A DNA stretch of 38,479 bases from Gallionella sp. (GTDB lineage: Bacteria; Pseudomonadota; Gammaproteobacteria; Burkholderiales; Gallionellaceae): contig JABFRF010000055.1 of assembly GCA_013141315.1 (NCBI GenBank), positions 1-38,479 of the forward strand, written 5' to 3'. Positions 1,877 to 33,779 of this stretch are shown here, one piece after another. The notes beneath the pieces were generated by a model. It did not search any database, was not told the DNA's origin, and worked only from the letters and a program-made list of their open reading frames with translations. Within the stretch, counting starts at the first letter, position 1. Every line of letters begins with the position of its first letter. A program made the position numbers and the translations under genes.

Positions 1877-3995
1877 CGGGGACAGGTTGCTGATTTTCTA
1901 AGCTCTTACCCGCGATGACCCCCATGCGCTGCTTGAGCGAACGCGGAGCAGCGCCAAATTGATACGCGTAATACAGGGTGTTGCTCATCACTTTTTTCAC
2001 ATAGTCACGCGTTTCATCAAAGGGAATTGACTCAGCGTAAATCGCGCCTTCCAAAGGCTGACTGCCGCGCCATTGCCGTGCCCTACCTGGGCCAGCGTTG
2101 TAGGCGGCGGAAGCCAACACGGGACTATCATCAAATTGGGCAAGCACGGTTTTCATGTAATAGGTGCCGAGTTTTAAATTGGTATCCAGTTGATGAATCA
2201 GCTCGTTACGGTAGCTTTTCAAACCCAATCTTTTAGCGACCCAACGTGCTGTCGCCGGCATGATCTGCATTAAGCCAGCCGCACCGACATTTGATCTGGC
2301 ATGCGTCACAAAACGACTTTCCTGACGCATCAGACCATACACCCACGCTTCGTCCAGCCCATTATCGCGGATGTGTCCTTGCAATGCATCACGATATGGC
2401 GCAAGAAAACGCATACTAAAATCATGTACGTTTACGGTCTTCTCCGCTGCACCGATTGCACGATCATACATCTCGTTGCTCCGCGCAACTTCGGCGGCAG
2501 TGAGCAATTCACGGTCATTAAAATTACGCAACATCCAACGCCATTCTTCCAAAGCATCCGTGCCTAACGACATCCGATACAACGCCAATGTGCGCTGCAC
2601 GCCTGGCAACTGCATCATCTCTGAAACGGCTTCTTTGCTAGGTTTGTAGCTAGGTGTTGCTGCGCTCATCACGGGTGTGCTGCCCAATTCATCCGTGGCC
2701 AATTGCCCATAAAAATTATATTCGGTGCTTAACGGTGCAAATAAATTACGCGCTTCGATTGGGCTGCCCAACTTTTGCAACGCACGTGCTTTCCAATAAC
2801 GCCACGCACCCTCTTTCTGTTGCTGCACGGACATTTGGTTGATGCTCACTAACACATCAGGCCAGTCTTGAGCACGCAAGGCCATGCGTACTCTCCATGC
2901 CGACTGAAGCTCACTTAAAGGCGCGTCTTCCGCCAGCTTGTACCATTGCAAAGCCCGATCATCCAACTTACGCGCCGCTTCAAAAGCTAGCCAGCTATAA
3001 AAGTATTGTTGTTCATTGGCGGGGAAATACGCCGCAAGTTTTGCCCAGTGATATGACGCTAAATCTGACGATTGCTTTGACAAACGTTGCAATGCGAATA
3101 GCGCAACCACACGCTGACCTTGTGTCGCCAGTGCCGGATGCGCTTTAGAGATAATTGGAGCGGCAGCAACATCACTGGTAACTGGGGCCTTAGTCAAACC
3201 ACAATCCGTCAAATTAGATAGAACATTGCCACAATCCGTTGTGGCTTTTTTCGCATCATCAGCAACGGCGTGGTTCGCTGCTTCCGACATAGCCGCATTC
3301 GGTATCGTTGTGGGTGCTTTATGAATTTCAAGTTCCAACTTATCCAAGTAACGGTCTGCATCTCTTGCCGCACTATCCAATGCTAGCTGCGACACTGCAT
3401 ACTTACCTGTCAATTTCGCCGCAAGTTGTTTTGCCAGCGAGACATTGCCCGCCTCTAACGCCAAATGCATACGCTCATCAATATCCCTTTCACTGATGAC
3501 ACCCGCAGCGATTGCCGCATCAAACGGAATACCACAGCTTTCCGGCTGACCTTTGCCAGTGAACCATAATCCATGCGCATCCCGCAGGGCAATGTCCGTA
3601 TGATTGCGAAGCTTGGATTGCAGTAGGTAACAGGTTAACTCGGTATCCTCATTCAATACACGCGGGTATTCGGTATCAAATAAATCCCACTGTTGTTTTT
3701 TGCCAAGCTGCTTGAGCCAGTCAATACGCAAGCGATTGACCATTGGCGTATCTTCTGGACGGGCTAAAAATTGCTTGATTGTCGCCACATCAGCTTTTTC
3801 CAAATCCAACTTTAATTGGTAGTAGTTGACGTAAACTTCCAACGGGGATTTGTTAAGTCGCTGGGCAAACTGAGCCAATTTTTTGGCATTGCCAACACGA
3901 AAGGCATCGCGTGCCGCTAAAAAATCTGCATCATCGTTTGCATAAACGGACGTACTGATGAGTAACAAATAACACACTAACAATCTCATCCGCAC
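1866..3995 (-). CDS. slt: Soluble lytic murein transglycosylase
   Basis: 709 aa; signal peptide, alpha-superhelical N-terminus, C-terminal SLT domain (GLMRQESRFVTHARSNVGAAGLMQIMPATA, LASAAYNAGPGRARQWR). Overlaps the cca start by 11 nt. Confidence 0.93.
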   Translation of the reverse strand: MRMRLLVCYLLLISTSVYANDDADFLAARDAFRVGNAKKLAQFAQRLNKSPLEVYVNYYQLKLDLEKADVATIKQFLARPEDTPMVNRLRIDWLKQLGKKQQWDLFDTEYPRVLNEDTELTCYLLQSKLRNHTDIALRDAHGLWFTGKGQPESCGIPFDAAIAAGVISERDIDERMHLALEAGNVSLAKQLAAKLTGKYAVSQLALDSAARDADRYLDKLELEIHKAPTTIPNAAMSEAANHAVADDAKKATTDCGNVLSNLTDCGLTKAPVTSDVAAAPIISKAHPALATQGQRVVALFALQRLSKQSSDLASYHWAKLAAYFPANEQQYFYSWLAFEAARKLDDRALQWYKLAEDAPLSELQSAWRVRMALRAQDWPDVLVSINQMSVQQQKEGAWRYWKARALQKLGSPIEARNLFAPLSTEYNFYGQLATDELGSTPVMSAATPSYKPSKEAVSEMMQLPGVQRTLALYRMSLGTDALEEWRWMLRNFNDRELLTAAEVARSNEMYDRAIGAAEKTVNVHDFSMRFLAPYRDALQGHIRDNGLDEAWVYGLMRQESRFVTHARSNVGAAGLMQIMPATARWVAKRLGLKSYRNELIHQLDTNLKLGTYYMKTVLAQFDDSPVLASAAYNAGPGRARQWRGSQPLEGAIYAESIPFDETRDYVKKVMSNTLYYAYQFGAAPRSLKQRMGVIAGKSLENQQPVPDEK

Positions 3996-4019
3996 GCATA
4001 GACCTTTCTTTTGTTTGAT

Positions 4020-4577
4020 TTAACTGCGGATGATTTTACCATCTGACCATGCTCGGATGGCTGATGGTTTTTTTCGTACACCTACTTTGCCGCCTAACAC
4101 CCATACTTGATGGCCGAATAGGCGTCGACATTCTGAGTAAGTTTTTGCAGGGCGTTTACCGCTGCGATTTGCACTGGTAGAAACCAGTGCGTGTCGCACA
4201 CCTTTGCATAGCTGTGCCGCAGATTGAAATGCGGTGAGACGGATTGCCAATGTGTGATGCATGCCACGCAAGCAACGCTGTGTTGAGGTTAGGGCAGGCA
4301 TTAAATAGGTGGTTACTTGCGCGCCACCTTCTGCCAGAATTGATTGCTGTTTGGCATTCAGCGGCTGTATAAAGTTTTTTACCTGCTGATAATTTGCCGC
4401 AATGAGAATCAAACCCTTGCGTTGCGGACGTTGTTTTAGCTTGAGCAAATTCCGCACAGCTTGATAATTATTAGGGTCGCAACCCAAACCGTAACAAGAC
4501 TCAGTGGGGTAGGCAATCAGTCCGCCGCGCTTGAGGTGACTGGCGATTGCCCGATATGAGGCATCCTGACGATGCAA
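4020..4577 (-). CDS. tsaC: L-threonylcarbamoyladenylate synthase (TsaC/YrdC family)
   Basis: 185 aa; GGLIAYPTESCYGLGCDP, KQRPQRKGLILIA, LVSTSANRSGKRPAKT. Apparent TTG start directly abuts the purD stop. Confidence 0.9.
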   Translation of the reverse strand: MHRQDASYRAIASHLKRGGLIAYPTESCYGLGCDPNNYQAVRNLLKLKQRPQRKGLILIAANYQQVKNFIQPLNAKQQSILAEGGAQVTTYLMPALTSTQRCLRGMHHTLAIRLTAFQSAAQLCKGVRHALVSTSANRSGKRPAKTYSECRRLFGHQVWVLGGKVGVRKKPSAIRAWSDGKIIRS

Positions 4578-5855
4578 TTATCTTTTACGTCCTATGGCTT
4601 TATGACCAATATCGCGGCGCATTTGACATCCGTCAAAATGAATCGTGGCGGCAATCTCATAAGCACGCCGTTGCGCCGCCTTGACCGTATCCCCCAATGC
4701 AGTCACACATAACACACGTCCACCCGTGGTGACCACTTGTCCATCGCGTAGCCCCGTTGCAGCATGAAACACATGCGCATCCACTGAGGCGCGATTTGGC
4801 AAGCCGGTAATCACATCGCCCTTGCGCGGTGTGTCGGGGTAATTCGCTGCTGCCATAACGATACCCAGTGCGGTACGTCTATCCCACTCGACTTCAACTT
4901 TATCGAGTGTGCCGTTTATCGAATGTTCGACGATGTGCAGGAAATTGGTCTTGAGCCGCAGCATAATTGGCTGGGTTTCTGGATCACCCATGCGGCAATT
5001 AAATTCCAACACCTTGATGCCACCATCAGGTGAAATCATCAGACCCGCATAGAGAAACCCCGTATAGGTAATGCCTTCACTTTCCATGCCCTGTACAGTT
5101 GGCATGATGACTTCACGCAATGCGCGCGCATGAATTTCTGGAGTTACAACTGGCGCAGGGGAGTATGCACCCATGCCGCCTGTATTCGGGCCAAGATCGC
5201 CATCCAGTAAGCGTTTATGGTCTTGACTGGTCGCTAATGGCAATACATTTTTGCCATCCACCATCACGATGAAGCTGGCTTCCTCGCCAGTCAAAAATTC
5301 TTCGATCACCACTCGCGCGCCGGCATCACCCAGCTTGTTGTCGGACAGCATCATGTCGATGGCGGCGAACGCTTCGTCGTTGCTCATGGCAACCACTACA
5401 CCTTTACCTGCTGCTAGGCCATCTGCTTTAACGACGATAGGTGCGCCATGTTTTTCGACATAAGCACGCGCTGCGGCAATGTCGTTAAACGTTTCAAAAA
5501 AAGCAGTGGGTATGTTGTGCCGCGTCATAAAGCGCTTAGCGAAATCTTTGGAAGATTCCAACTGCGCTGCCGCTTTAGTCGGGCCGAATATCTTCAACCC
5601 TGCCGCGCGGAAAGCATCTACAACACCCGCCGCCAAAGGGGCTTCAGGCCCAACCACAGTCAGATATATCTCTTCCCGTTGCGCAAATGCCAGCAGCTCA
5701 TCAACATTATTAAGCGCGACATTTTCCAAACCGTCTTCCAATGCCGTTCCGGCATTACCCGGTGCGACATATACTTTTTGAACCTTGACGTTCTGCGCCA
5801 AACGCCATGCCAGCGCATGTTCACGACCACCACCACCGATTACTAAAATTTTCAT
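4578..5855 (-). CDS. purD: Phosphoribosylamine--glycine ligase
   Basis: 425 aa; MKILVIGGGGREHALAWRLAQ, GPEAPLAAGVVDAF, VKADGLAAGKGV, EFNCRMGDPETQ. Confidence 0.97.
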   Translation of the reverse strand: MKILVIGGGGREHALAWRLAQNVKVQKVYVAPGNAGTALEDGLENVALNNVDELLAFAQREEIYLTVVGPEAPLAAGVVDAFRAAGLKIFGPTKAAAQLESSKDFAKRFMTRHNIPTAFFETFNDIAAARAYVEKHGAPIVVKADGLAAGKGVVVAMSNDEAFAAIDMMLSDNKLGDAGARVVIEEFLTGEEASFIVMVDGKNVLPLATSQDHKRLLDGDLGPNTGGMGAYSPAPVVTPEIHARALREVIMPTVQGMESEGITYTGFLYAGLMISPDGGIKVLEFNCRMGDPETQPIMLRLKTNFLHIVEHSINGTLDKVEVEWDRRTALGIVMAAANYPDTPRKGDVITGLPNRASVDAHVFHAATGLRDGQVVTTGGRVLCVTALGDTVKAAQRRAYEIAATIHFDGCQMRRDIGHKAIGRKR

Positions 5856-5867
5856 AACAACCTCAAG

Positions 5868-5890
5868 GTAGGGTGGGCAGATTGCCCACC
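5868..5890. repeat. REP-like palindromic repeat unit (GTAGGGTGGGCAGATTGCCCACC)
   Basis: Palindromic core GGTGGGCA..TGCCCACC. A related copy in opposite orientation lies at 6621-6650. Confidence 0.55.
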
Positions 5891-5899
5891 ATTCTCATT

Positions 5900-6286
5900 T
5901 TATTTTCCCACTACACTTAACGCCCACTGATGTGCCAGATCAACCAGTTGTTCCATCTCAGCCAAAGTCATTTTGATATAGGGCGTTTCTTCATAACGCA
6001 AAATCACCGCGAAGGGATTGAGATGACTAAATTGCTCCGGCGGGAAAGGCATCACTACGCGATGTTGCAATAACAAATCGACCAGCTCATCAACGTCATG
6101 TGTTCTGCGAAAAACGATACCGTGATATTCGGCAATCGCCTTCAAACATTTCTCTACAGTTTGTTGTGCAAAAAATCCCGAAGCGGAAATATCCACTTCG
6201 GGGTGCGTTGCCAGCGCGCGAAACGAAGTCATATCGCGCTGCGCCAACACCAGCAAACGGCGTGCCGCTTCAGTGTGCCGAGTCAT
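5900..6286 (-). CDS. HEPN-domain protein (toxin of MNT/HEPN module)
   Basis: 128 aa from ATG at 6286 (MTRHTEAARRLLVLAQRDMTSFRALATHPEVDISASGFFAQQTVEKCLKAIAEYHGIVFRRTHDVDELVDLL...). HEPN-type QQTVEKCLKA and RRTHD motifs. The tracked ORF 5900..6514 includes an implausible upstream extension overlapping MNT. Confidence 0.85.
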   Translation of the reverse strand: MTRHTEAARRLLVLAQRDMTSFRALATHPEVDISASGFFAQQTVEKCLKAIAEYHGIVFRRTHDVDELVDLLLQHRVVMPFPPEQFSHLNPFAVILRYEETPYIKMTLAEMEQLVDLAHQWALSVVGK

Positions 6287-6590
6287 ACAACACCTTGCCT
6301 TCGCGCAACGCCCAATACACCGCTGTAGAACACGCTTGCTGTTGCTGATTAACCTCGGCTTGCGAACACACCAACACATCAGCAGCGATTCGTAACGGAC
6401 GCAACACCTGGCGCAAACGCACCATCTCGCCAAATTTATCCGACAAGGTCGGCTCAACAACCAAGAAATCCAAATCTGATTCTTCACCTGCATCCCCGCG
6501 CGCATACGAACCAAACAAAATGACTCTGGCAGGCTTTGCCGCCTCGCCTAACAATTGAGCGGCTTGCATGATGGTTTGCTGTGAAATCAT
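6270..6590 (-). CDS. Minimal nucleotidyltransferase (MNT) domain protein, antitoxin of MNT/HEPN pair
   Basis: VILFGSYARGDAGEESDLDFLVVEP = GSxxRG..SDxDxxV nucleotidyltransferase motif. ATG at 6590 has upstream AGGTGA. Overlaps the HEPN gene by 17 nt. Confidence 0.85.
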   Translation of the reverse strand: MISQQTIMQAAQLLGEAAKPARVILFGSYARGDAGEESDLDFLVVEPTLSDKFGEMVRLRQVLRPLRIAADVLVCSQAEVNQQQQACSTAVYWALREGKVLYDSAH

Positions 6591-6620
6591 TTGGTCACCT
6601 TTTGCGATAATCCTTGCTAA

Positions 6621-6650
6621 CGTGGGCAACAAAAACTGGCCCGCCCTACG
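6621..6650. repeat. REP-like repeat unit, inverted copy of 5868-5890
   Basis: Reverse complement reads CGTAGGGCGGGCCAGTTTTTGTTGCCCACG, matching the 5868 copy at both ends. Confidence 0.5.
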
Positions 6651-6662
6651 TTTATGAACTCA

Positions 6663-7070
6663 TTATTTTGCCGAACGCCGCAATACTTGAACCGCTGGAG
6701 CGGTGTCATGCTGTGTCGCAATTTTGCAAAATACTTTATCGAACGAAACGAAAACTTCGTCGCCTGCGCTTAATGCCAAATGCATCGCATCGCCAAAATC
6801 CATGCCTGCCTCATACCATTTGATTGCCTGACACACAGCCTCGAACGACTTGGGTTTGAAGTTCGGCAAGCCGAGCAAAGTGCGCAGACTTTGCAAGATT
6901 TGATCCCGACTAAAGTCTTCCGTTTCCAGCACCCAAACCAACTCCAACATCACCGTAATAGGCGCGGTATAAATTTCCGAGCGACTCAGTAATTCGTGAG
7001 CTTGCTTGAACTGCGCCACATCGTCTTTGAGCAGCAAGCGCACCAAGATATTCGTGTCAAGCGCAATCAT
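6663..7070 (-). CDS. PIN-domain toxin (VapC-like)
   Basis: 135 aa; MIALDTNILVRLLLKDD, ELVWVLE, DFGDAMHLALS, acidic PIN residues. Confidence 0.9.
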   Translation of the reverse strand: MIALDTNILVRLLLKDDVAQFKQAHELLSRSEIYTAPITVMLELVWVLETEDFSRDQILQSLRTLLGLPNFKPKSFEAVCQAIKWYEAGMDFGDAMHLALSAGDEVFVSFDKVFCKIATQHDTAPAVQVLRRSAK

Positions 7071-7336
7071 TCGCGTGTCGCCGCGTCGCGCGCCTTCAAC
7101 ATCTTTGCTATTCGCGCACGCGTAATCTGCTCATAGGTTTTTTTCACGCCGCGCCTAGACAACAAACCCGCCGCATCATCTACTGTCGTAACAGGAAACA
7201 TCGGCAAGGGTGTTAGCCGAATCTCATCGCCCACAAAAGAAATTGCAAACTCCGTCCCCACCGCAAGGTGGTGGCTTTTGCGTATCTCATTGGGAATGAC
7301 GAATTGCCCTTTGGTGGAAAGTTTAACGGTTTGCAT
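7067..7336 (-). CDS. AbrB/SpoVT-fold antitoxin (VapB/MazE-like)
   Basis: MQTVKLSTKGQFVIPNEIRKSHHLAVGTEFAISFVGDEIRLTPL; 4-nt overlap with the PIN toxin; GAGGTG upstream of ATG at 7336. Confidence 0.88.
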   Translation of the reverse strand: MQTVKLSTKGQFVIPNEIRKSHHLAVGTEFAISFVGDEIRLTPLPMFPVTTVDDAAGLLSRRGVKKTYEQITRARIAKMLKARDAATRE

Positions 7337-7399
7337 AAACACCTCATTTTGGTAAGTTAGCAAATCTTACCAAGATGGCAAAGAAAATACCATGCTACC

Positions 7400-9169
7400 T
7401 TAGGAAAAATCCCAAACATTGAGTGCCAGCTGCTTAAGATGCCGATGCCTTGTATCAATGTTCGCACTATTCCATTCAGAAAAAGTTGGCAGCAATGATG
7501 CTGTTTTAGCAAAAGCCGAAGCAATCCCAACCGCCTGAGACTGCGTAAGAGATTTAGTCATAAACAGCGCAGATTTTTGGTAATGCGGCTGTTTATCGAT
7601 GAAAAAATCACGTCCAATCGCACAATTGATTGATTGCTCTAATAAAGTCAGGTTACCTAGACGTTGTTTGTAGCTATCGTACATATCAGTCTTATCAAAC
7701 TTTTCTCTTTGCTCAGGCGTTGGCTGATTCGGCAAAATGTGTTCAATGTGATAGCCCCAGTAATGCTCAATTCCAGCGACCTGACACCCTGCCAACCCTT
7801 CAACGTACTGAGCAATTCGGCACAATACAAAACGACTGGCAGTTTTTCTTTCCAAGGACAGCCCATCAATCGACGCTTCTATCCTAGGAAGACGCTTCGC
7901 AATTTCTGGCTGAATCCAAGCCGCCAAGTGGTCACGAAGCAAGCTAATCCTTTGTGGTGTATCTGGTGTCGTCTGAACAAAAGCATACAAAGCTGGAGCT
8001 GCGTTTGAAAAGATAATATCTAATGCCTTAGTTGTTTCTTTGATTAAAACAAAAGCAACAAACAGATTCTCCATTTGCCTTCCCACTTCATCAAGCTCGT
8101 CCTTGTGCAATCCCTCTGTCGCCAGCATGACAATCAAATGTTGACGTGCGCGCGCAGAAAGTTGGTATATGTGAGCTAGATGAGAGCCTGGACTTGCAAC
8201 ATGCTGCTTGTATAACTTTGCTGCCTCAAGCAATTGCTTGGCGTAACCAACTGGATCTTTTGAAATTCCAATAGCATCCTGATGCTCCACAAGCCATTCG
8301 TACAGGTGATCTTCGGTAAGCGGCTTACCATTTTTGCGTGCATCAGGGTAACGTGAAAGGACGAAGTAACGCAGAAAGCGCAATGCCTTCTCACCTTTCT
8401 TCGTTGTTTCTATGGTGTGAACCATATCTTTCCAGATGCCTGTAAGTCGATCAAATTCTTTGCTATCAGCTTGTCGAAATAAAAGATTCTTGAGTAAATC
8501 AAGTGCATTTAGTCCCACACCGCGATCATTAATAGTCTCAAAAATACGCAATGCATCCGCCACGCTGCCAGTCTGAATTCGAACAAGACGCACACGTTTG
8601 GTAAGTGCTGCCTGAAAAGCGCGCAGCTTACCTACATCAGCACCGAATTCCTCCTCCAGAAATTCGTAGGCAGTTGCGTACGCTTCGAGCATATTTTGAG
8701 CTGAATTCGGTAGTTTTTTTGTTGAAGGAAATTGCTCTCCTGATGCAATTCCATTTAGCGCATCACCCGCATCTTCATAAAGTGGCTTAAGCCGAAGGCG
8801 AACACAGGGAATACCATTTTCGTCATCAACTTCATCTTGAATCATTTTCTCCAAGATGTTTAATGACACACGATCTTCTAAATCTTTACGTCGATCACGA
8901 AATGCACATAGTGCAATGAACAGGGAGGTAATCCGTTGTTGCCCATCTATCAATTGAAATACATCGTTCTCTTTGTAAGCAACGATACTGCCAATAAAAT
9001 ATTCAGATTGCGTAGGCGAGCCATTTTCATCAAATAGCGCATCAAGTGCATCTGACAACAATGCTTCAACCTGTGCAGCTTTCCAAACGTACTCCCGCTG
9101 AAACTGAGGTACTTCGTAAAAGTCTTTGAAAACTTCCTCGATAGCAGGGTGCTTAACGTCAAGTTGCAC
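7400..9169 (-). CDS. DUF262 + DUF1524 (HNH-like) protein, GmrSD-type restriction family
   Basis: 589 aa; FQREYVWKAAQVEALLSDAL, QLIDGQQRITSLFIAL (DUF262), C-terminal YHIEHILPNQPTPEQ...QRLGNLTLLEQSIN (DUF1524). GTG start with AAGGAG upstream. Confidence 0.87.
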   Translation of the reverse strand: MQLDVKHPAIEEVFKDFYEVPQFQREYVWKAAQVEALLSDALDALFDENGSPTQSEYFIGSIVAYKENDVFQLIDGQQRITSLFIALCAFRDRRKDLEDRVSLNILEKMIQDEVDDENGIPCVRLRLKPLYEDAGDALNGIASGEQFPSTKKLPNSAQNMLEAYATAYEFLEEEFGADVGKLRAFQAALTKRVRLVRIQTGSVADALRIFETINDRGVGLNALDLLKNLLFRQADSKEFDRLTGIWKDMVHTIETTKKGEKALRFLRYFVLSRYPDARKNGKPLTEDHLYEWLVEHQDAIGISKDPVGYAKQLLEAAKLYKQHVASPGSHLAHIYQLSARARQHLIVMLATEGLHKDELDEVGRQMENLFVAFVLIKETTKALDIIFSNAAPALYAFVQTTPDTPQRISLLRDHLAAWIQPEIAKRLPRIEASIDGLSLERKTASRFVLCRIAQYVEGLAGCQVAGIEHYWGYHIEHILPNQPTPEQREKFDKTDMYDSYKQRLGNLTLLEQSINCAIGRDFFIDKQPHYQKSALFMTKSLTQSQAVGIASAFAKTASLLPTFSEWNSANIDTRHRHLKQLALNVWDFS

Positions 9170-22202: not shown

Positions 22203-23510
22203 TTAATGTACCTGGCCACGGTGTGTATCAATCTTCACGCCAATTTCTTGCAGTAATGGCGTAGGTAAAATCCCACCTGCGCAGATTATTACCGCATCAT
22301 TGGGTATCTCCGTCACATTGCCTTTTTGTTCTATCTTCACTGTGTCAGATCGAATTTCTGTGACGGCCGATTCCAGCAATATGTTGAGTCTGCCCGATGC
22401 GCTCGCGGCTTCGGCATACTTGCGATTTTTTACTTTGACGCGACTGAATGCATTGCTGCGATAGCTCAGCGTTACTGTTGTCCCCGGTTCTTCAGAAATG
22501 GTCACGGCAGCTTCTAGTGCTGCGTCACCTCCGCCTACGACGATGACATGCTTACCCTGAAATTGCGCCGGGTCAATCAAACGATACATGACCTTTTCTA
22601 ACTCTTCGCCGGGTACATCTAACTTGCGCGGGGTACCGCGCCTGCCAATTGAAAGTAATACACTATTGGTGTGGTACGTACTCTTGGCAGTGACAACGGA
22701 AAATGTGCCATCGGGTTGGTGATCGATACGCTCCATTCTTTCGCCAAAATTGATCTTGATGCCTGTTTTGAGTAGCACGTCTTCCCATAGCGCCATGAGA
22801 GCCTCTTTATTGGTCTCCCTGAAATTCACTTTTCCGTACAGGGGTAAAGTCATCGGTGCGGTCATCACTAGTTTTCCGCGTGGGTAATGCAGCGTTGTTC
22901 CACCAAAAGTGCTTTCCTGTTCGATCGTGACATAACGTAAACCTTGTTCGTGTGCGGATAAAGTCGACGACATGCCTGCAGGACCAGCACCGACAATCAC
23001 TACATCGTAAGGCGCATTGGATTTTTTGCGCTTGGAGATAGTGGTAATTGATTGCCGACCCTGTTCAACCGCTTTGCGGATTAGCCCCATACCGCCCAAC
23101 TCGCCTGCGATAAAAATTCCCGAAACATTGGTTTCAAAGTTGGGTTTGACTTGCGGGATATCCACACCGCGCTTTTCGGTGCCGAATACCAATTTAATCG
23201 CACTGACCGGACAAGCTGCTGCACAAGCACCATGACCAATACACACCGCTGGGGTGATGAGAACGGCCTTGCCGTCAATAATGCCCAAGGCTTTTTCAGG
23301 ACAGGATTTGACGCAACTGCCCGAACCCATGCACAAGTTGAGATCAACCACGGGATGCAAGGTGGCGGGTTCCGTTAAGCCAGCTTCTATCGTCTCACGC
23401 AAGATTTCGGTGTGAACCACAGTTCTTTTGCTGTGTCCACGCAAATAGAAAAACATGACCAGTGTGATGGGGATGATGTACAGCAGGTAAACGAAATAAT
23501 CTGATTTCAT
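22203..23510 (-). CDS. Membrane-anchored oxidoreductase: N-terminal TM helix, ferredoxin-like domain, FAD/NAD(P)-binding pyridine nucleotide-disulfide-type domain
   Basis: 435 aa; YFVYLLYIIPITLVMFFYLRG TM helix; LCMGSGSCVKSCPEKALG and VCIGHGACAAACPVSAI; VVIVGAGPAGMSSTLSAHEQG; VIVVGGGDAALEAAVTISE; ICAGGILPTPLLQEIGV. Confidence 0.88.
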   Translation of the reverse strand: MKSDYFVYLLYIIPITLVMFFYLRGHSKRTVVHTEILRETIEAGLTEPATLHPVVDLNLCMGSGSCVKSCPEKALGIIDGKAVLITPAVCIGHGACAAACPVSAIKLVFGTEKRGVDIPQVKPNFETNVSGIFIAGELGGMGLIRKAVEQGRQSITTISKRKKSNAPYDVVIVGAGPAGMSSTLSAHEQGLRYVTIEQESTFGGTTLHYPRGKLVMTAPMTLPLYGKVNFRETNKEALMALWEDVLLKTGIKINFGERMERIDHQPDGTFSVVTAKSTYHTNSVLLSIGRRGTPRKLDVPGEELEKVMYRLIDPAQFQGKHVIVVGGGDAALEAAVTISEEPGTTVTLSYRSNAFSRVKVKNRKYAEAASASGRLNILLESAVTEIRSDTVKIEQKGNVTEIPNDAVIICAGGILPTPLLQEIGVKIDTHRGQVH

Positions 23511-23675: not shown

Positions 23676-24677
23676 ATGTCATCTGAAATAGTGCAGCAAG
23701 AAAAAATCGGCGATAACGGTGCGGTCGATAGACGCGTGCAGAACGTAGTACACGAGCGTCGCTCATCAAGAGCTTCAGACGCGCCTGCGCCGGTTAAGGT
23801 GTTGGGCGGAACGCGTGCGCATGAAAAAAAACGCCTGGGTATGAGCGTAGCAATTATGTGGTTTGTGTTTGCAGCCTTGGTGGTGTTAGCCATCCCCGTT
23901 TACCAGGGCTTGTTTTATAAGCCTGGCAACGGTTGGGGGTATTTTAGCTATTGGATAGGTATCGTCGGCAGCGTAATGATGCTGCTGATGTTGTTGTATC
24001 CGATTCGAAAGCACTTGGCTTTTGCGCGTAATTGGGGCGCGTTACGCTATTGGTTCATGTTGCACATGATGTTTGGTATCGGTGGGCCGATACTCGTTTT
24101 ATTTCATACTACTTTTCACATTAAATCTTTAAATGCTACGGTTTCATTGGCTTCCATGCTGTTGGTGGCAATCAGTGGTGTGATTGGTCGTTTCATTTAT
24201 CGGCACATTCATCAAGGTTTGTATGGTCGTCAATCCGACCTAAAAGAGTTGCAAAAAGCCGTTGATGCAAACCAGGAAAAAATCAGCTCGGTGCTTATGG
24301 AAGCACCGGAAATTGGCGATAAGCTGAAAAAATTCCGCGACCATGTAATGGCGAAAGATGGGTCATTGCCCAGTCGTATGTGGCGGTTTATGACCATGAC
24401 TTGGTATCGTCGCAAGCTGACATCGCATTGCAGTGATGAATTGCGCAAGGCTGTTATCATCTTGGCAAAGTCGCAGCATTGGAATGCGCGGCAGCAAGAA
24501 ATGCATTGGCAAGAGGCGGTAAACAAAGTCAGCAGCTATTTGGAGGCGGCTCAGCAAGCCGGGCAGTTTTCTACCTACGAGCGGTTGTTTCGTTTGTGGC
24601 ACATTTTGCATTCTCCATTTGTTTGGTTGTTGGGCTTCAGCGCGATAGTGCATGTCGTCGCTGTCAACATGTATTGA
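23676..24677 (+). CDS. Integral membrane cytochrome-b-like protein (putative di-heme electron-transfer subunit)
   Basis: 333 aa with about 5 TM segments carrying His residues in helices: FMLHMMFGIGGPILVLFHTTFHI, GRFIYRHIHQGLYG, LWHILHSPFVWLLGFSAIVHVVAVNMY. Divergent from the oxidoreductase gene, 10 nt upstream of the 24-heme cytochrome. Confidence 0.7.
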   Translation: MSSEIVQQEKIGDNGAVDRRVQNVVHERRSSRASDAPAPVKVLGGTRAHEKKRLGMSVAIMWFVFAALVVLAIPVYQGLFYKPGNGWGYFSYWIGIVGSVMMLLMLLYPIRKHLAFARNWGALRYWFMLHMMFGIGGPILVLFHTTFHIKSLNATVSLASMLLVAISGVIGRFIYRHIHQGLYGRQSDLKELQKAVDANQEKISSVLMEAPEIGDKLKKFRDHVMAKDGSLPSRMWRFMTMTWYRRKLTSHCSDELRKAVIILAKSQHWNARQQEMHWQEAVNKVSSYLEAAQQAGQFSTYERLFRLWHILHSPFVWLLGFSAIVHVVAVNMY

Positions 24678-24687
24678 TTGAGGTTTC

Positions 24688-26490
24688 ATGCTGATACGTT
24701 TCGCATTACTTTTATGTTTGGTGTTTGGGACTAACGTTACATGGGCTGACGAGAAAGAACTCGCCTTGATGCCGGGCGATGTTATTCAGGGTCATGCCAA
24801 GATTGAAGCTAGCTGCAAAGACTGTCACGTGCGTTTCGATAAGGAAGCGCAAAAGGGGTTGTGCAAAGACTGCCATAAAGAAGTTAAGGCGGACGTGAAC
24901 AATAAAAAAGGTTTTCACGGCACGCTAGACGAAAAAGATTGCAAGGTTTGCCACACTGACCATAAAGGGCGTGGCGCGAAAATCGTGATTTTGGATACCG
25001 CAAAATTCAATCACGACAAAACCGATTTTCCATTGAAAGATGCGCACAATAAAACTGACAAAGTAAAGTGTCAGGATTGCCACGATCCAAAGAAGAAATA
25101 TCGTGAAGCGCCGCTGGAATGTAATGGCTGTCACAAAAAAGACGATAAGCACAAAGGCTCATTAGGCCCGGATTGCAACAATTGCCACACCGTTGTTAAC
25201 TGGAAAGAATGGAAATTTGATCACAGCAAAACCAAGTTTTTGCTGAAAGGTAAGCACGTTGATGTGAAGTGCAGCAAGTGCCACTTAGAGGCACCCACAA
25301 GCTACAAAGAGGCACCCAAAGATTGCTTCGGTTGCCACAAAAAAGATGATAAGCACAAAAGCCTGTACGGTAAGAAATGTGAGACTTGCCACATCGATAA
25401 AAGCTGGAAAACCATTGAATTTGATCATGACACCGAAACTAAATTTAAGTTAAAAGGTAAGCACATTGAAACAAAGTGTGTGGCTTGCCATAAAGAGCCG
25501 TTGTATCAAAACAAGAAAACGCCGGACACGTGTTATGCCTGTCATAAAAAGGATGACATTCATAAAGGTGGCTTGGGTGAAAAGTGCCAGACTTGTCACA
25601 ATGAAGAGAAGTGGAAGACACAAAAGTTTGATCACGACAAGGATACTAAATGGCCATTGCTGGGTAAACACACCACTACCAAATGCGATGCCTGTCATAC
25701 AGTCGAATTGAAAAAACCAGATGCGAAAGAAAAAATCGCATTGATTTGTATCGGCTGTCATAAGATCGACGATAAGCACAAGGAAAATTTCGGTACCAAG
25801 TGTGAGTCTTGCCATAAGGAAAAAGACTGGAAAACCATTAAGTTCGATCACACACGTGATACCAAGTATCCATTAAAGGATAAGCATGAAAAAGTGAAAT
25901 GTACCGGTTGTCACATTGGCAAGTTGTACGATCAAAAATTGGGTCAGGAATGTATCACCTGTCATAAAAAAGATGATGTACATAAGGATAAATTGGGCAA
26001 GAAGTGCGAGGCTTGTCACGAAATCAAAGATTGGAAAAAGGCGAAAATTGACCATAGTCGTTCGCGTTTCCCGCTTTTGGGCGCACATAACGTTGTCGAT
26101 TGCAAAAAATGTCACACCACCCAGTTATTTCGTGATGTGCCTTTAGATTGCTTCTCTTGCCATAAAAAGGAAGAAGATAAAGTACACAAGCAACGCTTGG
26201 GTCAAAAGTGTGAAACCTGCCACAACGCACGTTCGTGGAAATCATGGGACTTTAACCACGATAAGCTCACCAAGTTCAAGCTGGATGGCGGTCACAAAAA
26301 GCCGGGTTGTTATGCTTGCCATAAGCTGCCTGTGGAGAAGGAGAAGTTTGTGGTTGAACGTACTTGCGGTGCCTGCCACGAAAAAGATGATAAGCATCAG
26401 GGTGAGTTTGGGCAACTCTGTGAGCGCTGCCACGTGACCGCAAATTGGCGTACCTTGCTGGTAGGTGGTGGTACCAAGCCATCCAAGTGA
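24688..26490 (+). CDS. Lys-rich multiheme c-type cytochrome with 24 CXXCH motifs, likely periplasmic
   Basis: 600 aa; signal peptide MLIRFALLLCLVFGTNVTWA; 24 CXXCH motifs counted by eye. Confidence 0.93.
   Translation: MLIRFALLLCLVFGTNVTWADEKELALMPGDVIQGHAKIEASCKDCHVRFDKEAQKGLCKDCHKEVKADVNNKKGFHGTLDEKDCKVCHTDHKGRGAKIVILDTAKFNHDKTDFPLKDAHNKTDKVKCQDCHDPKKKYREAPLECNGCHKKDDKHKGSLGPDCNNCHTVVNWKEWKFDHSKTKFLLKGKHVDVKCSKCHLEAPTSYKEAPKDCFGCHKKDDKHKSLYGKKCETCHIDKSWKTIEFDHDTETKFKLKGKHIETKCVACHKEPLYQNKKTPDTCYACHKKDDIHKGGLGEKCQTCHNEEKWKTQKFDHDKDTKWPLLGKHTTTKCDACHTVELKKPDAKEKIALICIGCHKIDDKHKENFGTKCESCHKEKDWKTIKFDHTRDTKYPLKDKHEKVKCTGCHIGKLYDQKLGQECITCHKKDDVHKDKLGKKCEACHEIKDWKKAKIDHSRSRFPLLGAHNVVDCKKCHTTQLFRDVPLDCFSCHKKEEDKVHKQRLGQKCETCHNARSWKSWDFNHDKLTKFKLDGGHKKPGCYACHKLPVEKEKFVVERTCGACHEKDDKHQGEFGQLCERCHVTANWRTLLVGGGTKPSK
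25006..26454 (+). repeat. Seven tandem triheme modules (about 69 aa each) inside the 24-heme cytochrome
   Basis: Consensus FDH-D-TKF-LKGKH--VKCxxCH ... CxxCHKKDDKHK--LG-KCxxCH---WK repeated 7 times; 3 further N-terminal hemes lie outside the repeats. Confidence 0.9.
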
Positions 26491-26678: not shown

Positions 26679-29600
26679 ATGAAAAAACAAAATATGAAAT
26701 TTGCAGCAGTGAGCTTGCCTCAAATTTTACTTTCACCGCGTTGGCTGGCGATGATATTTCTGTTGCCTTTGCTTGTGATGGCTCATTTTGCGATGGCTGC
26801 ACCCGCTGCTGAACTAGTCCCGGCGGCGCAACCGGTTGCGCAAGCTCCTGCTGCTGATAAATTTGATCACGCTAAGATTGGTTTTACCCTGAGCGGTGCG
26901 CACGCTGCGGCACGTTGCTCTGCCTGCCACATCAACAATGTATTTAAAGGGACGCCGCGTGATTGTGCCACTTGCCACACAGTTGGCAACCACATGGGTG
27001 CGACAGCGAAGCCCACTAAACACATAGCTACTAATGTTCAATGTGATGTGTGCCACAAAACCACTTTGTGGACACCCGCATTCTTTAGTCACGTCGGTAC
27101 GGCGGCAGGTTCTTGTGGCGCTTGCCATAATAATACGGCTGCCAAAGGCAAGGCGAATAGCCACATGCCAACCGCGCAAGACTGTTCCGATTGTCATACC
27201 AGTATCGCTTTCACGCCATTGAAATCGGGTGCAGTGATGGTGTTGCCCGTGACTAATCCCCCGCACGTCCCAACAACCCAGCCTTGCAGCTTGTGCCACA
27301 ATTCCACCGCTTTTGTTCCAGCCTTTACCATGGATCACACAGGCATTACCAGTGCATGCGAGACTTGTCATAGCGGTACTCAATTCTTGGGCGTCAAGCC
27401 ACGTGCCAAGCAGGATGCGGTGCCAACCCACATGACTACCGCATTGTCATGCAATGTCTGTCATACCGTCGCCACAACCTTTAAATTGTCGGGTAGCGTG
27501 ACATTACCTATGCCTGCAGGTCACATGCCTTCAAACATGCCTTGTGCGACCTGCCACACTGCCAGTGCCGGATTTGGTCCGGGTTCAGGTTTGCTGGGTA
27601 TGACCCATAAGGGCATCACCAATAACTGCAAGAGTTGCCATAACGGTCAAACTTTTGCACTGGGTCAGGGTGTGACGCCCAAGCCTATGCCGTCCAACCA
27701 TATCAGTACCAGTGGCGCATGTGAAACTTGCCACTCTCCAACCAGTACCAATGCGGGTGGATTTGTGACCGCAACCATGGTGCATACGGGCATTACCAGT
27801 AATTGTGCAAGCTGCCATAACGGACAGACTTTTGTCGGTACGCCCCCTATGAGTTCTCCGGTATCCAAGCCAACCGGTGTGCCAGCACATATAACGACCA
27901 GTTTGGCTTGTGAGACTTGCCATGCAGTGAACAAAACTAACGTGGGCGGGTTTGCCGGCACGGCAATGAATCACTCTGGGATAACGGTTGATTGTGTCAG
28001 CTGTCACGGTGGGCAAACCTTTGCAGTTGGGGTTAAGCCGCTTTCTATGCCGGGGAATCACTTGCCAACATCGGCAGTAACGAATGGGGGGAAGTGTGAG
28101 ACCTGTCATTCGGCAAGCAGAACAAATGCAGGGGGATTCACAGGTGCACCGATGAATCATGCCGGTATTGTTGGAAGCTGCGCGACCTGTCACGGCGGGA
28201 CAGTGACCTATGCGGGTGTTAATCATATTGTCAGTAGTAAAGATGCGGTGGCTTTGCAAAAATATCCAGCACATGCAACCACTCCATCTGATTGTTCCAG
28301 CTGTCACTCCTCGGTAATCACTTTTGCGGGGGGCGGTACCACAGCTATACCTGCCAATCACTTACCTACCAATCAAGTCTGTTCGCTTTGCCATTCCGCT
28401 GGGTATAGTCCGACTTTGACCAAGATGAGCCACGTAGGCATCGTGAATAATTGCAGCTTCTGCCACGATGGTAACAAGACCTTCGCGGTGGGAATGGTGC
28501 CCATGAACAAGAACAGTGGTCATGTACCAACCAGTTCAGATTGTTCGGTCTGTCATACCTCAACCACAACTTTTAAAGGGGGAACAAGCGGTGCGCTCCC
28601 GGCAGGACACTTGGTCACGACTCAGCCTTGCGTGCTTTGCCATGCCGGGGGATATAGCATTACTTCGACGAAGATGCAGCACACGGGCATTGTCAGCGGT
28701 TGTGCAAACTGTCATAACGGTCAAACCTTTGCGGTGAACATGACCCCTGTATCCAAGCCGACTGGCTCACTCCCGCATATCCCAACCAGTTTTGCGTGTG
28801 AGAATTGTCATCTACCGAGCAAAACAAGCGTGGGTGGTTTTGCTGGAACCGCGATGAAGCATACTGGCATCACCAACAATTGCGCGTCATGTCATAACGA
28901 CGGGATGAGCTTTGCCGGTGTAACGCCTAAGCGCAAGCAGGATGCCAGCATTACGCATCTAACCACGGTGGATGATTGCTCAAAATGTCACACCTCAACC
29001 ACCACCTTCACTGCGGCTACGCCGATATTGCCAGCTAACCACATCGTAACAGCGATGCCTTGCTCGACTTGTCATGCCGCCGGCTATAGTCTGACTTTAA
29101 CCAAGATGAGTCACGTTGGTATTGTGAGCGGCTGTATCAATTGCCATAACGGTCAAACTTTTGCGGTCAACATGACGCCAAAGAATAAGTCAGATTTCCC
29201 AACACACATGGCGACAACTTCGGATTGTTCGTTCTGTCACTCCACCTCAAACTTCACTTCATTTGCTGGTGGAACAGGTGGCGGGGTCAAGCCGGCGAAT
29301 CACATACCGACCACGCAAGGCTGTACGGTTTGCCATGCTGCCGGGTATAGTCTGACATTGACCACTATGAATCATACGGGCATCACGACTGGGTGTGTGA
29401 ACTGTCATAACGGACAGACGTTTGTCGGGCCACAAACGCCAAAAATGAAGCCAGGCAATCACATTCCTTACGCGACCATGTTGCTTGGCGGGGCAACCAT
29501 GCAATGTGAGTTCTGCCACAAAAACACGACAGTACCCGGTGGCTTCCTGACTAGTACAACTGGCGCAACAATGCACAACAATAGCCTTGGCAAAGGCTCG

Positions 29601-29756
29601 GGTCAGTGTACTGGCTGTCACCTTTCTGGTACCACCTATCTCGGTGTAAAGGGAAGGAAGTCATTGACTCATAATAAAACGGGACATCTGGATTGCTCAG
29701 ATTCTGGTTGCCACAAACCGCTGGGTAATGAAGGAACTGCGTATCAAAGCTGGTAA
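26679..29756 (+). CDS. Very large multiheme c-type cytochrome (32 CXXCH + 1 CX4CH), candidate outer-surface cytochrome
   Basis: 1025 aa; signal peptide RWLAMIFLLPLLVMAHFAMAA; 32 CXXCH plus terminal CSDSGCH counted by eye; Ala/Ser/Thr/Gly-rich, Lys-poor. Confidence 0.93.
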   Translation: MKKQNMKFAAVSLPQILLSPRWLAMIFLLPLLVMAHFAMAAPAAELVPAAQPVAQAPAADKFDHAKIGFTLSGAHAAARCSACHINNVFKGTPRDCATCHTVGNHMGATAKPTKHIATNVQCDVCHKTTLWTPAFFSHVGTAAGSCGACHNNTAAKGKANSHMPTAQDCSDCHTSIAFTPLKSGAVMVLPVTNPPHVPTTQPCSLCHNSTAFVPAFTMDHTGITSACETCHSGTQFLGVKPRAKQDAVPTHMTTALSCNVCHTVATTFKLSGSVTLPMPAGHMPSNMPCATCHTASAGFGPGSGLLGMTHKGITNNCKSCHNGQTFALGQGVTPKPMPSNHISTSGACETCHSPTSTNAGGFVTATMVHTGITSNCASCHNGQTFVGTPPMSSPVSKPTGVPAHITTSLACETCHAVNKTNVGGFAGTAMNHSGITVDCVSCHGGQTFAVGVKPLSMPGNHLPTSAVTNGGKCETCHSASRTNAGGFTGAPMNHAGIVGSCATCHGGTVTYAGVNHIVSSKDAVALQKYPAHATTPSDCSSCHSSVITFAGGGTTAIPANHLPTNQVCSLCHSAGYSPTLTKMSHVGIVNNCSFCHDGNKTFAVGMVPMNKNSGHVPTSSDCSVCHTSTTTFKGGTSGALPAGHLVTTQPCVLCHAGGYSITSTKMQHTGIVSGCANCHNGQTFAVNMTPVSKPTGSLPHIPTSFACENCHLPSKTSVGGFAGTAMKHTGITNNCASCHNDGMSFAGVTPKRKQDASITHLTTVDDCSKCHTSTTTFTAATPILPANHIVTAMPCSTCHAAGYSLTLTKMSHVGIVSGCINCHNGQTFAVNMTPKNKSDFPTHMATTSDCSFCHSTSNFTSFAGGTGGGVKPANHIPTTQGCTVCHAAGYSLTLTTMNHTGITTGCVNCHNGQTFVGPQTPKMKPGNHIPYATMLLGGATMQCEFCHKNTTVPGGFLTSTTGATMHNNSLGKGSGQCTGCHLSGTTYLGVKGRKSLTHNKTGHLDCSDSGCHKPLGNEGTAYQSW

Positions 29757-29860: not shown

Positions 29861-32242
29861 GTGATGGAGTCGAAATTGAAAATTAACCAGATGTTGCTCC
29901 CCCATAAAATTTTAACGCGAGCAATCACTGCCCTTGGATTATTTTTGCCGCTCTATATGTCTGGAGTTCAACAAGCGAATGCCGAGGTGATTGATCGTAT
30001 TGAGATCAATCAAGTCGGTGAGCAAGCGGAGATTCAGCTGCACTTCATAACGCGCATTCAGTTTAAGCGCCAGAGGACACTCAAGAATGGCGATGTACGT
30101 TATTACGTGACGCTGAAGGATATCAAGCCTGATGACCCCAGATTGGTGTGGGAAAAAAAGGGTTCACCCCCTTCAGATATCGTGCCGCCGTTTACAGTGA
30201 CCTACCCAGAGCTGGATTCGTCGCTCACGGTTAGTTTTGGCAAAGTGATTAAGACGCGTGCTCGGGTGGCGGCGGATGGTCAGACTCTGAGTATTTTTAC
30301 CAAAGCGATCAAAGCTCCGCAGGCAGAGCAGATTGCTTTGCCAATTGTGCCCACTGCACCGGTAATTGAGCTGCCAATCGCAGCGGCAGCAGTGGTGAGT
30401 GCGGCGGCGGCAGTGAGTACCGAAGCTGCAGCCAGAGCTAATGCCAGTGCCGATTTACCTGAGCCAGTCATTAAAGTAGAGGGTGCTGGCTTTCCGACAG
30501 ATTTGCCGGCAGAAAATCAGCGTACGCCGGAACAAGTACAGCAAGAGGCGCAGCAGCTTTTCGTGGCAGCCAGCGATGCTTTGCAGACCAATCAAATTGA
30601 CGCTTCGATCGAAGCTCTGAACAAAGTTCTCAATCTGCCACCCAATGTGCTGACGCAGCCAGCACAAGAGTTAATGGGTGAGGCGCGTGAAAAAAATGGC
30701 GAGTTTGCAAAAGCGCGGGTGGAATACGAGCTATATCTAAGGTTGTACCCCAATGCGGCGGACTTAAAACAAGTGCAGGCTCGCATAGCCAATTTACCCG
30801 TCAGCGATGCGAAGCCAGTACCCGCACCGATTGTATCGGAAGCCACACAACGAGCAAATGATGAAAAACTTAAAGTGACGGGTGGTATTTCGCAAAACTA
30901 CTACTACGGAAATTCGCATACAGATGCATTTGCTATTGACACGAATAATGTGACGACAACCACTAGGTTTGGTGGGAAGGATCAGTCGCAGTTGGTGACA
31001 TCGCTGGATTTGACTGCGCAGAAGCGCACTGAAACTAAAGACACGCGATTAGTGTTGCGCGAATTCAATCGGGCGAATTTCATGCCGGATCAACCGGAAG
31101 AGTATCGTTGGAATGCGGTTTATCTTGAACAGAGCGCACGGGATCGAAAATACATGTATCGCTTGGGTCGCCAGTCGGGTTCGTCGGGCGGTATGCCTGG
31201 CCGGTTTGATGGCTTGGCTGCCGGGTATAGCCTGAATTCGACTTGGCGCATCAATGCCGCAGCTGGCAAGCCTGTTGAGTATATTCGCGGCGGAAACCCG
31301 GCTGATGCCAAAACTTTTTACAGCGGAAGCATAGACCTTTCCCGCTTGCCTGATCAATGGAGCGGAAGTGCTTATGGTGTATTGCAGTATGTGGGGGGAG
31401 TAGGCGGGGTTCTGGAACGTAAAGCATTGGGCGCGGAGGCGCATTATTTCAATCAGCAGCGTAGTTATATGACGCAAATGGAATATGACACGATCTACCA
31501 AAAATTGAATCTAGTGAGTTTCCAGGGAAATTGGACTAAAGAATCCGGTACGAACTTTTACCTGTCAGCAGACCATCGCAGGTCACCCCCGTTGGTGTTG
31601 AGCTTGAATAATCAATGGACGCAGTCGCTAAAAGAGTTGCTTGGCGAAGGCACCGTCACGTTGCAGACTTTGCGTGAGAATGCGATCGCACTCAGCCAGA
31701 TTTTCAATATGATTTCAGTCGGCATGTCACGTCCAATGACTCCCACTTTGAGATTGGCTACGGATTTTCGAGTCAGCAACATAGGCAGTTCAGGGGTAAA
31801 TACCACATCGACTAAAGCACCCGGGAGCAATACGATCACTGTTGGCACACAACCGGGAGCGATCAGCACTGGCAATCAATACGTGTGGTCTGCGCAGGCG
31901 ATTGGTAACAATTTATTCTTTGATAACGACCTAGGTATCGCCAATTATTCTTATAGTAGTGCAAGAGATTCCAAGTCGCATTCTTTGGGTTTTAGCCAAG
32001 TGACTACTTTTAGAGAAAAGTGGCGTGCTGATTTATCGCTGCAACTTTTTAATTCGCATAGTGATACCAGTGGAACGACAACTCAGGTTCGGCCAAGTGT
32101 GTCGATTAACTATCGCAAGAGTGATACCTTGAGCTTCACCGCCGAAAGTGGCGTGGAGCAATACCACACCACCGCAACAGGATCTGAAAGCAAAACACTG
32201 CGCAAGTATTTCTTCGTAGGTTATCGTTGGGACTTGCGCTAG
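29861..32242 (+). CDS. Outer-membrane porin-like protein with N-terminal periplasmic region (TPR) and C-terminal beta-barrel
   Basis: 793 aa; N-terminal hydrophobic signal (AITALGLFLPLYMSGVQQANA); TPR-like LFVAASDALQTNQIDASIEALNKVL...AREKNGEFAKARVEYELYLRLYP; C-terminal alternating amphipathic strands ending KYFFVGYRWDLR. Confidence 0.8.
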   Translation: MMESKLKINQMLLPHKILTRAITALGLFLPLYMSGVQQANAEVIDRIEINQVGEQAEIQLHFITRIQFKRQRTLKNGDVRYYVTLKDIKPDDPRLVWEKKGSPPSDIVPPFTVTYPELDSSLTVSFGKVIKTRARVAADGQTLSIFTKAIKAPQAEQIALPIVPTAPVIELPIAAAAVVSAAAAVSTEAAARANASADLPEPVIKVEGAGFPTDLPAENQRTPEQVQQEAQQLFVAASDALQTNQIDASIEALNKVLNLPPNVLTQPAQELMGEAREKNGEFAKARVEYELYLRLYPNAADLKQVQARIANLPVSDAKPVPAPIVSEATQRANDEKLKVTGGISQNYYYGNSHTDAFAIDTNNVTTTTRFGGKDQSQLVTSLDLTAQKRTETKDTRLVLREFNRANFMPDQPEEYRWNAVYLEQSARDRKYMYRLGRQSGSSGGMPGRFDGLAAGYSLNSTWRINAAAGKPVEYIRGGNPADAKTFYSGSIDLSRLPDQWSGSAYGVLQYVGGVGGVLERKALGAEAHYFNQQRSYMTQMEYDTIYQKLNLVSFQGNWTKESGTNFYLSADHRRSPPLVLSLNNQWTQSLKELLGEGTVTLQTLRENAIALSQIFNMISVGMSRPMTPTLRLATDFRVSNIGSSGVNTTSTKAPGSNTITVGTQPGAISTGNQYVWSAQAIGNNLFFDNDLGIANYSYSSARDSKSHSLGFSQVTTFREKWRADLSLQLFNSHSDTSGTTTQVRPSVSINYRKSDTLSFTAESGVEQYHTTATGSESKTLRKYFFVGYRWDLR

Positions 32243-32299: not shown

Positions 32300-33748
32300 A
32301 TGGAGAATGTTGTGAAAACATCATCATTGGCAAAATACGGTTCACTCGCATTAGTGCTTTTACTTGCGGCCTGTGGCGGTGGTGGAGCCGATACTGTCGG
32401 CACACCCAATACAGGTGGTGTATCCGCGACATCGTTGATTAACTGGACATGGGTAAATGGGGCTAATACTACATTTCAGTTAGGTGACTATGGCGTACAA
32501 AGTGCACCTGCTGCAACCAATCAACCGCGCGCACTGGAGGGTGCGGTGTCATGGACAGACGCGCTTGGGAATCTGTGGATGTTCGGCGGCGGCGGCATTG
32601 ATAGCACAGTTAACTCGGCAGGTAATTCCGGTGATTTTAACGATATGTGGAAATACGATACCACGACCAAGCAATGGACGTGGCTGACTGGAACAGCCAC
32701 GCTGAATCAGCTTGGTACCTATGGGGTGCAAGGCACAGCTAATGCTGCGAACTCACCGGGAGCACGCCAATATTCTTCAACTTGGACGGATAGTGCTGGG
32801 GATCTCTGGCTGTTTGGCGGCTATGTCAGGACTGATGTTCTATCAGGAAGTACAGCCTTTGCTAACGACTTGTGGAAATTTAACCCCGGCTCTAATCAAT
32901 GGACATGGATAAATGGGTCGGATATAACCAATCAAGTTGGGAGTCATGGTTCGATCAATATCACCAGTCCAAGCAATGTGCCTAGTGCGAGGTATGGCGC
33001 AGTATCCTGGAAAGATACGAGTGGTAATTTTTGGATGTTTGGTGGATTAGGGATAGATTCAACGGGTGCAACCGGCTACCTCAATGATTTATGGAAATTT
33101 GATGGCGTTAACTGGACTTGGATTAGTGGAGCTAAAACGATCAATCAGGTAGGCGTGTATGGAAGCAAGGGTATCGCTGCCGTGGGTAATGTTCCCGGTG
33201 GACGCTCTGGCGCAGCAGGTTGGAAAGATGCCAGTAACAACTTCTGGTTGTTTGGTGGCTATGGATTTGGCAGTGCAGGAAAGGGCGACCTGAATGATAT
33301 GTGGAAGTTCGATGGGATAAAATGGACTTGGATGGGCGGCGACCTTACTATCGGCCAACTTGGAAGCTATGGAACGCCGGGTGTGGTTAGTGCCAGTAAT
33401 ATCCCGGGCGCACGCCGCTTTTCAGCCACTTGGACAGATGGCAGCGGTAAGTTTTGGCTATTTGGCGGGGCTAGGTATAACGCCAGTTTTAATACCGATG
33501 ATTACAACGATCTTTGGAAATTCGATGGTAACAATTGGATTTGGATGAGTGGTTCAAATGCGACAAATCAATCGGGTACCTATGGCACATTGGGAAGCCC
33601 TGCACTGGCCAATGTTCCTGGAGCACGAGATGTTTCAGTATCTTGGACGGATAGTAATGGTAAGTTTTGGTTGTTCGGTGGACAAGGATATGACTCGCTC
33701 GGTTCAGTTGGCTATCTCAACGATCTATGGGGCTTCGCCGTCAAGTAA
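32300..33748 (+). CDS. Kelch/galactose-oxidase-like beta-propeller lipoprotein, six repeats
   Basis: 482 aa; lipobox-type signal ALVLLLAACGGGG; repeats TWxxGxxxxNQxGxYGxxG...PGAR....WxDxxGxFWLFGG....xNDLWKFD. GTG at 32312 is an alternative start. Confidence 0.85.
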   Translation: MENVVKTSSLAKYGSLALVLLLAACGGGGADTVGTPNTGGVSATSLINWTWVNGANTTFQLGDYGVQSAPAATNQPRALEGAVSWTDALGNLWMFGGGGIDSTVNSAGNSGDFNDMWKYDTTTKQWTWLTGTATLNQLGTYGVQGTANAANSPGARQYSSTWTDSAGDLWLFGGYVRTDVLSGSTAFANDLWKFNPGSNQWTWINGSDITNQVGSHGSINITSPSNVPSARYGAVSWKDTSGNFWMFGGLGIDSTGATGYLNDLWKFDGVNWTWISGAKTINQVGVYGSKGIAAVGNVPGGRSGAAGWKDASNNFWLFGGYGFGSAGKGDLNDMWKFDGIKWTWMGGDLTIGQLGSYGTPGVVSASNIPGARRFSATWTDGSGKFWLFGGARYNASFNTDDYNDLWKFDGNNWIWMSGSNATNQSGTYGTLGSPALANVPGARDVSVSWTDSNGKFWLFGGQGYDSLGSVGYLNDLWGFAVK

Positions 33749-33754
33749 CTCACC

Positions 33755-33779
33755 GTGATCGGCACATTGTGCCGATCAC
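33755..33779. terminator. Hairpin between convergent kelch gene and folA (GTGATCGGCAC-ATT-GTGCCGATCAC)
   Basis: 11-bp perfect stem, 3-nt loop; weak T-tract. Confidence 0.6.

Follow-up and report, generated by a model that had tools for sequence, protein, structure and literature searches.

The PCC3 electron conduit encoded in the window, which is the whole analysed stretch of 38,479 nucleotides from a Gallionella genome (here G000), is followed by the gene of a predicted six-bladed kelch lipoprotein that is co-inherited with the conduit porin in a small Gallionella clade (Table 1). We read this protein as a non-redox accessory for docking or adhesion at the outer face of a PCC3 variant, and give this reading a probability of roughly 0.45.

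Table 1. Features of the PCC3 cluster and of the kelch gene; positions are those of the window.
Feature	Position	Strand	Remarks
Fe-S/FAD oxidoreductase, divergent	22203-23510	-	conserved PCC3 neighbour in the genus
PCC3 inner-membrane protein	23676-24677	+	two Wx3Hx13H motifs and SGxxG
Periplasmic-type multihaem cytochrome	24688-26490	+	24 CxxCH
Extracellular-type multihaem cytochrome	26679-29756	+	32 CxxCH; ordinary non-lipid signal peptide
PCC3 porin	29861-32242	+	N-terminal domain, TPR-like stretch, beta-barrel
Kelch lipoprotein, open reading frame	32300-33748	+	482 aa; probable true CDS 32312-33748, GTG start
Lipobox Cys	32372-32374	+	Cys25 in ATG numbering; Gly-rich linker after it; +2 is Gly, not Asp
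Blade 1	32444-32674	+	aa 49-125, 77 aa
Blade 2	32675-32899	+	aa 126-200, 75 aa
Blade 2, long b-c hairpin	32804-32884	+	aa 169-195; common to the G053 orthologue (YVRxDVLxGxTAxANDLWK)
Blade 3	32900-33112	+	aa 201-271, 71 aa
Blade 4	33113-33322	+	aa 272-341, 70 aa
Blade 5	33323-33535	+	aa 342-412, 71 aa
Blade 6	33536-33745	+	aa 413-482, 70 aa
11-bp hairpin just 3' of the kelch stop	33755-33779	+	-25.5 kcal/mol, z = -4.9; weak T tail

An earlier note on this DNA had described a lipobox followed by six kelch units in this reading frame, and the frame itself, the Pfam matches and the division of the protein into six units all confirm the description. The note had also placed the gene 57 nt behind the porin gene. 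The shared strand stands, and the distance is correct when counted from the porin stop to the ATG at 32300. A GGAG at 32302-32305 lies 6 nt upstream of a GTG at 32312, and a start at this GTG gives a signal peptide, MKTSSLAKYGSLALVLLLAAC, of 21 residues, the same length as in the two orthologues (G053 and G029). For these two reasons GTG 32312 is the more likely translation start, which makes the distance 69 nt.

The signal peptide is of the Sec type and ends in a lipobox, ALVLLLAAC-GGGG, of which LLLAAC-G is kept in both orthologues; judged by its signal peptide and lipobox Cys, the protein is a bacterial lipoprotein. Glycine rather than aspartate at position +2 fits sorting to the outer membrane by the E. 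coli rule only, and we infer that the protein is exposed on the outer membrane surface. A terminator-like site was looked for in the gap between the porin and kelch genes and none was found, and the hairpin directly behind the kelch gene may be the end of the transcription unit. The kelch gene would then be co-transcribed with the PCC3 genes.

Pfam kelch models match the protein far over their cut-offs (PF24681, E=2e-25; PF13415, E=5e-16), and the repeated kelch motif, a Gly-Gly doublet with spaced aromatic residues, is present by these matches and by the six units. Pfam gives kelch-type propeller models alone, and the NHL repeats found in the UetHI proteins are absent. A search of NCBIfam with the protein gave no match, and a sequence search of the PDB gave weak matches only (best E 0.013). 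An AlphaFold2 model built on an alignment of 27 sequences is a closed six-bladed propeller (pLDDT 89, pTM 0.85), so the mature part is predicted to form a single closed ring of four-stranded blades. The closest solved structures found by Foldseek are six-bladed kelch domains (KLHDC3/KLHDC2, LZTR1, KEAP1 and NanM/YjhT; E 1e-14 to 1e-12), among which KLHDC2, LZTR1 and KEAP1 bind ligands. These proteins share the fold with the window protein but just 13-18% identity, and they serve mostly in eukaryotic degron or Ras binding, or as a sialic-acid epimerase; we draw no inference of a common function from the fold match.

No CxxCH motif occurs in the 482 residues, there is one His in all, and the single Cys is the lipidated one. 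From this residue content it follows that the protein cannot be a c-type cytochrome or a haem or copper redox carrier. It has 26 Lys and Arg and 32 Asp and Glu, a slight acidic excess, and no His- or Cys-rich metal site. The earlier description of the protein as Trp-rich is correct (30 of 482 residues), but these residues are mostly at structural positions conserved throughout the family, including organisms without conduits, and Trp-based conduction is therefore not indicated.

The earlier note had further described the repeats as near-identical, of about 72 aa, and recent expansion as likely; neither claim holds. The units are 70-77 aa long, and identity between them is 38-56% at the protein and 48-62% at the DNA level. 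At positions with the same residue, codons agree between blades in 23-54% of cases, where 38% is expected from the codon usage of the gene. As the blades have diverged and their codons agree no better than codon usage predicts, recent expansion is ruled out; the repeats, though regular, are old. Averaged over the blades, identity is 48% for the window protein and 42% for the G053 protein, at the low end of a kelch family in which other members reach 60-74%; a published survey sets the threshold for a highly symmetric propeller at >60% (PMC9218822). Within the family alignment, the long b-c hairpin of blade 2 stands out as unusual.

The haem number of PCC3 conduits exceeds that of MtrCAB or MtoAB, and their presumed role is to take up electrons from iron minerals. 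The genes upstream of the kelch gene are, by their sequence motifs, a full PCC3 conduit with all defining parts, including the Wx3Hx13H and SGxxG motifs by which the inner-membrane protein was defined (PMC5566968). Such porin-cytochrome clusters have been described in Sideroxydans, Leptothrix and Gallionellaceae (PMC5566968, PMC10734462). The published clusters have the same four parts as the window, i.e. the inner-membrane protein, a 24-haem periplasmic and a 32-haem extracellular cytochrome, and the porin; the window differs by the appended kelch lipoprotein. The main texts of these two PCC3 surveys and of a paper on organotrophic Sideroxydans do not mention a kelch protein, and that of the ES-1 magnetite paper does not mention propellers; no propeller of any other kind is described for PCC3 in the main texts searched either. 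A search of the available literature collection combining kelch, multihaem cytochromes and extracellular electron transfer found no papers.

Some further features of the porin-cytochrome clusters were observed in the survey. The extracellular PCC3 cytochromes of the window's Gallionella group (that of the window and those of L035-L047) have ordinary signal peptides, and many of those in other Gallionellaceae genera carry a lipobox (e.g. L144, L146 and L148). In other families of the order (L242, L245, L246, L248 and L255) the extracellular cytochromes of PCC3 clusters have 54-62 CxxCH and 1500-2382 aa. A separate porin sub-family of about 37-41% identity (L050, which is G000:C169 at 2557-8271, and L052, L053 and L049) has as neighbours small secreted proteins, which contain 0-3 CxxCH, or a DUF4382 lipoprotein, with an apparent response regulator and sensor kinase downstream.

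In a family sample of 158 Gallionellaceae genomes, the kelch gene was found in three (G000, G053 and G029), each time directly 3' of the PCC3 porin gene and on the same strand; the G029 gene is cut by a contig end. The porin tree places these genomes and G087 in one clade, (G000,G087),(G053,G029), with support 100/100. A quick tree of kelch proteins from a broad sample has the three Gallionella proteins as a monophyletic group, branching as the porins do (SH-aLRT 99 and 98), and the two trees agree. In G053 the genes 3' of the kelch gene are unlike those of the window, with the kelch gene still beside the porin gene.

The closest porin relative of the window, G087, lacks the kelch gene: folA comes about 50 bp after its porin gene, with a terminator-like hairpin between them, and this locus is intact in a genome that is only about 60% complete. 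A kelch neighbour is present at 3 and absent at about 65 of the 68 PCC3-like porins of the family with a readable neighbour. The automated count gave 2 of 68, because the G029 copy ends before its NDLW motif. No kelch gene of the same family stands beside the porin at 16 further porin loci outside Gallionellaceae. Synteny with PCC3-like clusters, which the earlier note had proposed as a check, thus holds in the three kelch-positive genomes and fails at most other loci. The lack of a kelch gene beside homologous conduits, which the note had named as grounds for refutation, is the case at those about 65 porins, G087 included.

The simplest history of these genes would be a single gain on the stem of the G000/G087/G053/G029 clade and a single loss in G087. 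Because the gene is missing from G087 and from most PCC3 porins, the kelch protein is, on present gene distribution, an accessory of one porin sub-clade and not a part of the PCC3 core, and the conduit would not generally depend on it. A link between kelch protein and conduit is probable; it rests on three loci of one probable evolutionary origin. What had been called a kelch gene appended to a PCC3-like conduit therefore stands as far as the conduit type, the pairing in all three kelch-positive genomes and the agreement of the trees are concerned, and is narrowed to a clade-specific accessory.

Relatives outside the clade come from a genome scan whose seeds were two short peptide patterns (mainly NDLWKFD), so that it samples close relatives only; several of the loci are short. 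The wider family is widespread over many phyla, and a multihaem cytochrome lies within 10 kb at 3 of the 78 non-Gallionella loci. Eighteen other genomes of the same order gave kelch matches (two marginal), none of them beside PCC3. Secreted or lipoprotein kelch propellers of the pattern WTW...FGG...NDLWKF, from Acidobacteria, Desulfobacterota, Myxococcota, Bacteroidota, Planctomycetota and Spirochaetota, resemble the window protein at about 37-52% identity, with an equal blade pattern and often a lipobox and six blades. They differ from it in being seldom near cytochromes and in having blades that are often far more alike.

This wide spread with few cytochrome neighbours, together with the lack of the gene in G087 and in almost every related PCC3 cluster, would also fit a general envelope or surface lipoprotein (for adhesion, or for polysaccharide or peptide binding) that landed between porin and folA and is functionally unconnected to the conduit. 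We take this possibility seriously, but the two genes have stayed adjacent in both deep branches of the clade although the proteins have diverged by about 50% and other neighbours have changed, and the porin and kelch trees match. A second copy of the same family was also sought elsewhere in the kelch-positive genomes and none was found.

We therefore tentatively keep to the docking or adhesion accessory, since a surface-binding accessory is the best reading of a lipid-anchored ring inherited together with an outer-membrane conduit. A small Gallionella sub-lineage would have gained the kelch gene at the end of its PCC3 cluster, and the lipid would anchor the protein in the outer membrane. There the loop face of the ring may bind a partner, which could be the secreted, non-lipidated 27-32-haem cytochrome, the porin, or a mineral or exopolymer outside the cell, and this binding would keep the conduit held against its electron source.

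A stronger version, which we consider rather unlikely, makes the kelch protein a true structural subunit by which the secreted, non-lipidated 27-32-haem cytochrome is tethered to the outer membrane or is itself docked on the porin, with unrelated propeller lipoproteins of the kelch, NHL and lactonase types repeatedly recruited for the same job. The earlier remark that a characterised kelch propeller is not known as a component of electron conduits needs qualifying for propellers at large, as NHL propellers have been published. The NHL-repeat UetHI proteins are members of the Uet cluster in Ca. Tenderia and six Gallionella (PMC10734462), and NHL proteins occur in cytochrome clusters of Desulfovibrio ferrophilus (PMC9769857) and in the MtoA locus of Geoalkalibacter, where mineral binding was suggested (PMC12016550). 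As in the window, the Uet propeller genes belong to a cluster of porin and multihaem cytochrome genes in the same bacterial family, but the repeats are NHL and not kelch, and both the conduit and the gene order are other.

The window's own genome has a Uet-like cluster on contig C28 (L264, 620-11194), with a 4-haem CxxCH protein, a PPIase, a 618-aa protein that has no Pfam match and is a porin candidate, an NHL propeller lipoprotein (lipobox LMTSC) and an 11-haem cytochrome of 908 aa, the start of whose gene is overlapped by the end of the NHL gene. A second NHL propeller protein of this genome, with a lipobox-like signal, lies near small 1-4-haem cytochromes (L263, G000:C112, 1100-7909). Within a PCC3 cluster, a propeller lipoprotein of lactonase type (PF10282, 7-bladed) was seen once in the survey, in G056 between a 24-haem and a 25-haem cytochrome (L039:13994-15127). 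It shares with the window protein the lipobox, a propeller fold, the place inside PCC3 and the genus, and differs in propeller family and in its position in the cluster. The lipoproteins of G056 and of contig C28, unrelated to the kelch protein, also speak for the accessory reading. Propellers in conduit clusters are already known; new here are that the propeller is a kelch, that it is attached to PCC3 and that it has been inherited together with one porin clade. A role as the lipid anchor that replaces a lipobox on the cytochrome was rejected. Other Gallionella PCC3 clusters without a kelch gene also have non-lipidated cytochromes, so anchoring by the kelch protein is not general and its presence does not track such a need.

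It is improbable that the protein is a factor for ligand or mineral specificity, which would capture an iron mineral or an iron-chelating exopolymer on its propeller face and bring it to the cytochrome with no contact to the proteins of the conduit. Residues conserved specifically in this lineage lie mostly in the d-a and b-c loops, which share one face; the counts are few, statistically weak and affected by an aligner that misplaces part of the blade-2 hairpin. The conservation of this hairpin between the window and G053 and the mineral binding suggested for NHL propellers point the same way, but that suggestion cites a designed and not a natural protein (PMC12016550). The bias towards one face is not strong, the acidic excess is slight, and a His- or Cys-rich metal site is lacking.

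The copper site of galactose oxidase requires two His and a Tyr-Cys crosslink. An enzyme, either a copper oxidase of galactose oxidase type or a sugar epimerase of NanM type, is brought to mind by the galactose oxidase names of two matching Pfam kelch models and by NanM/YjhT among the structural matches, but is very improbable, given that a single His, and no Cys beyond the lipidated one, is present in the mature protein, which argues against the copper-oxidase form and, like any redox role, leaves it without ligands, and that the NanM family is absent from the Pfam matches of the window protein.

A co-inherited, non-redox kelch lipoprotein is a concrete candidate for holding the long extracellular PCC3 cytochrome or for gripping its substrate. 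Taken with the NHL propellers of Uet, it suggests a testable rule by which beta-propeller lipoproteins have been taken up time and again as accessories of outer-membrane electron conduits.
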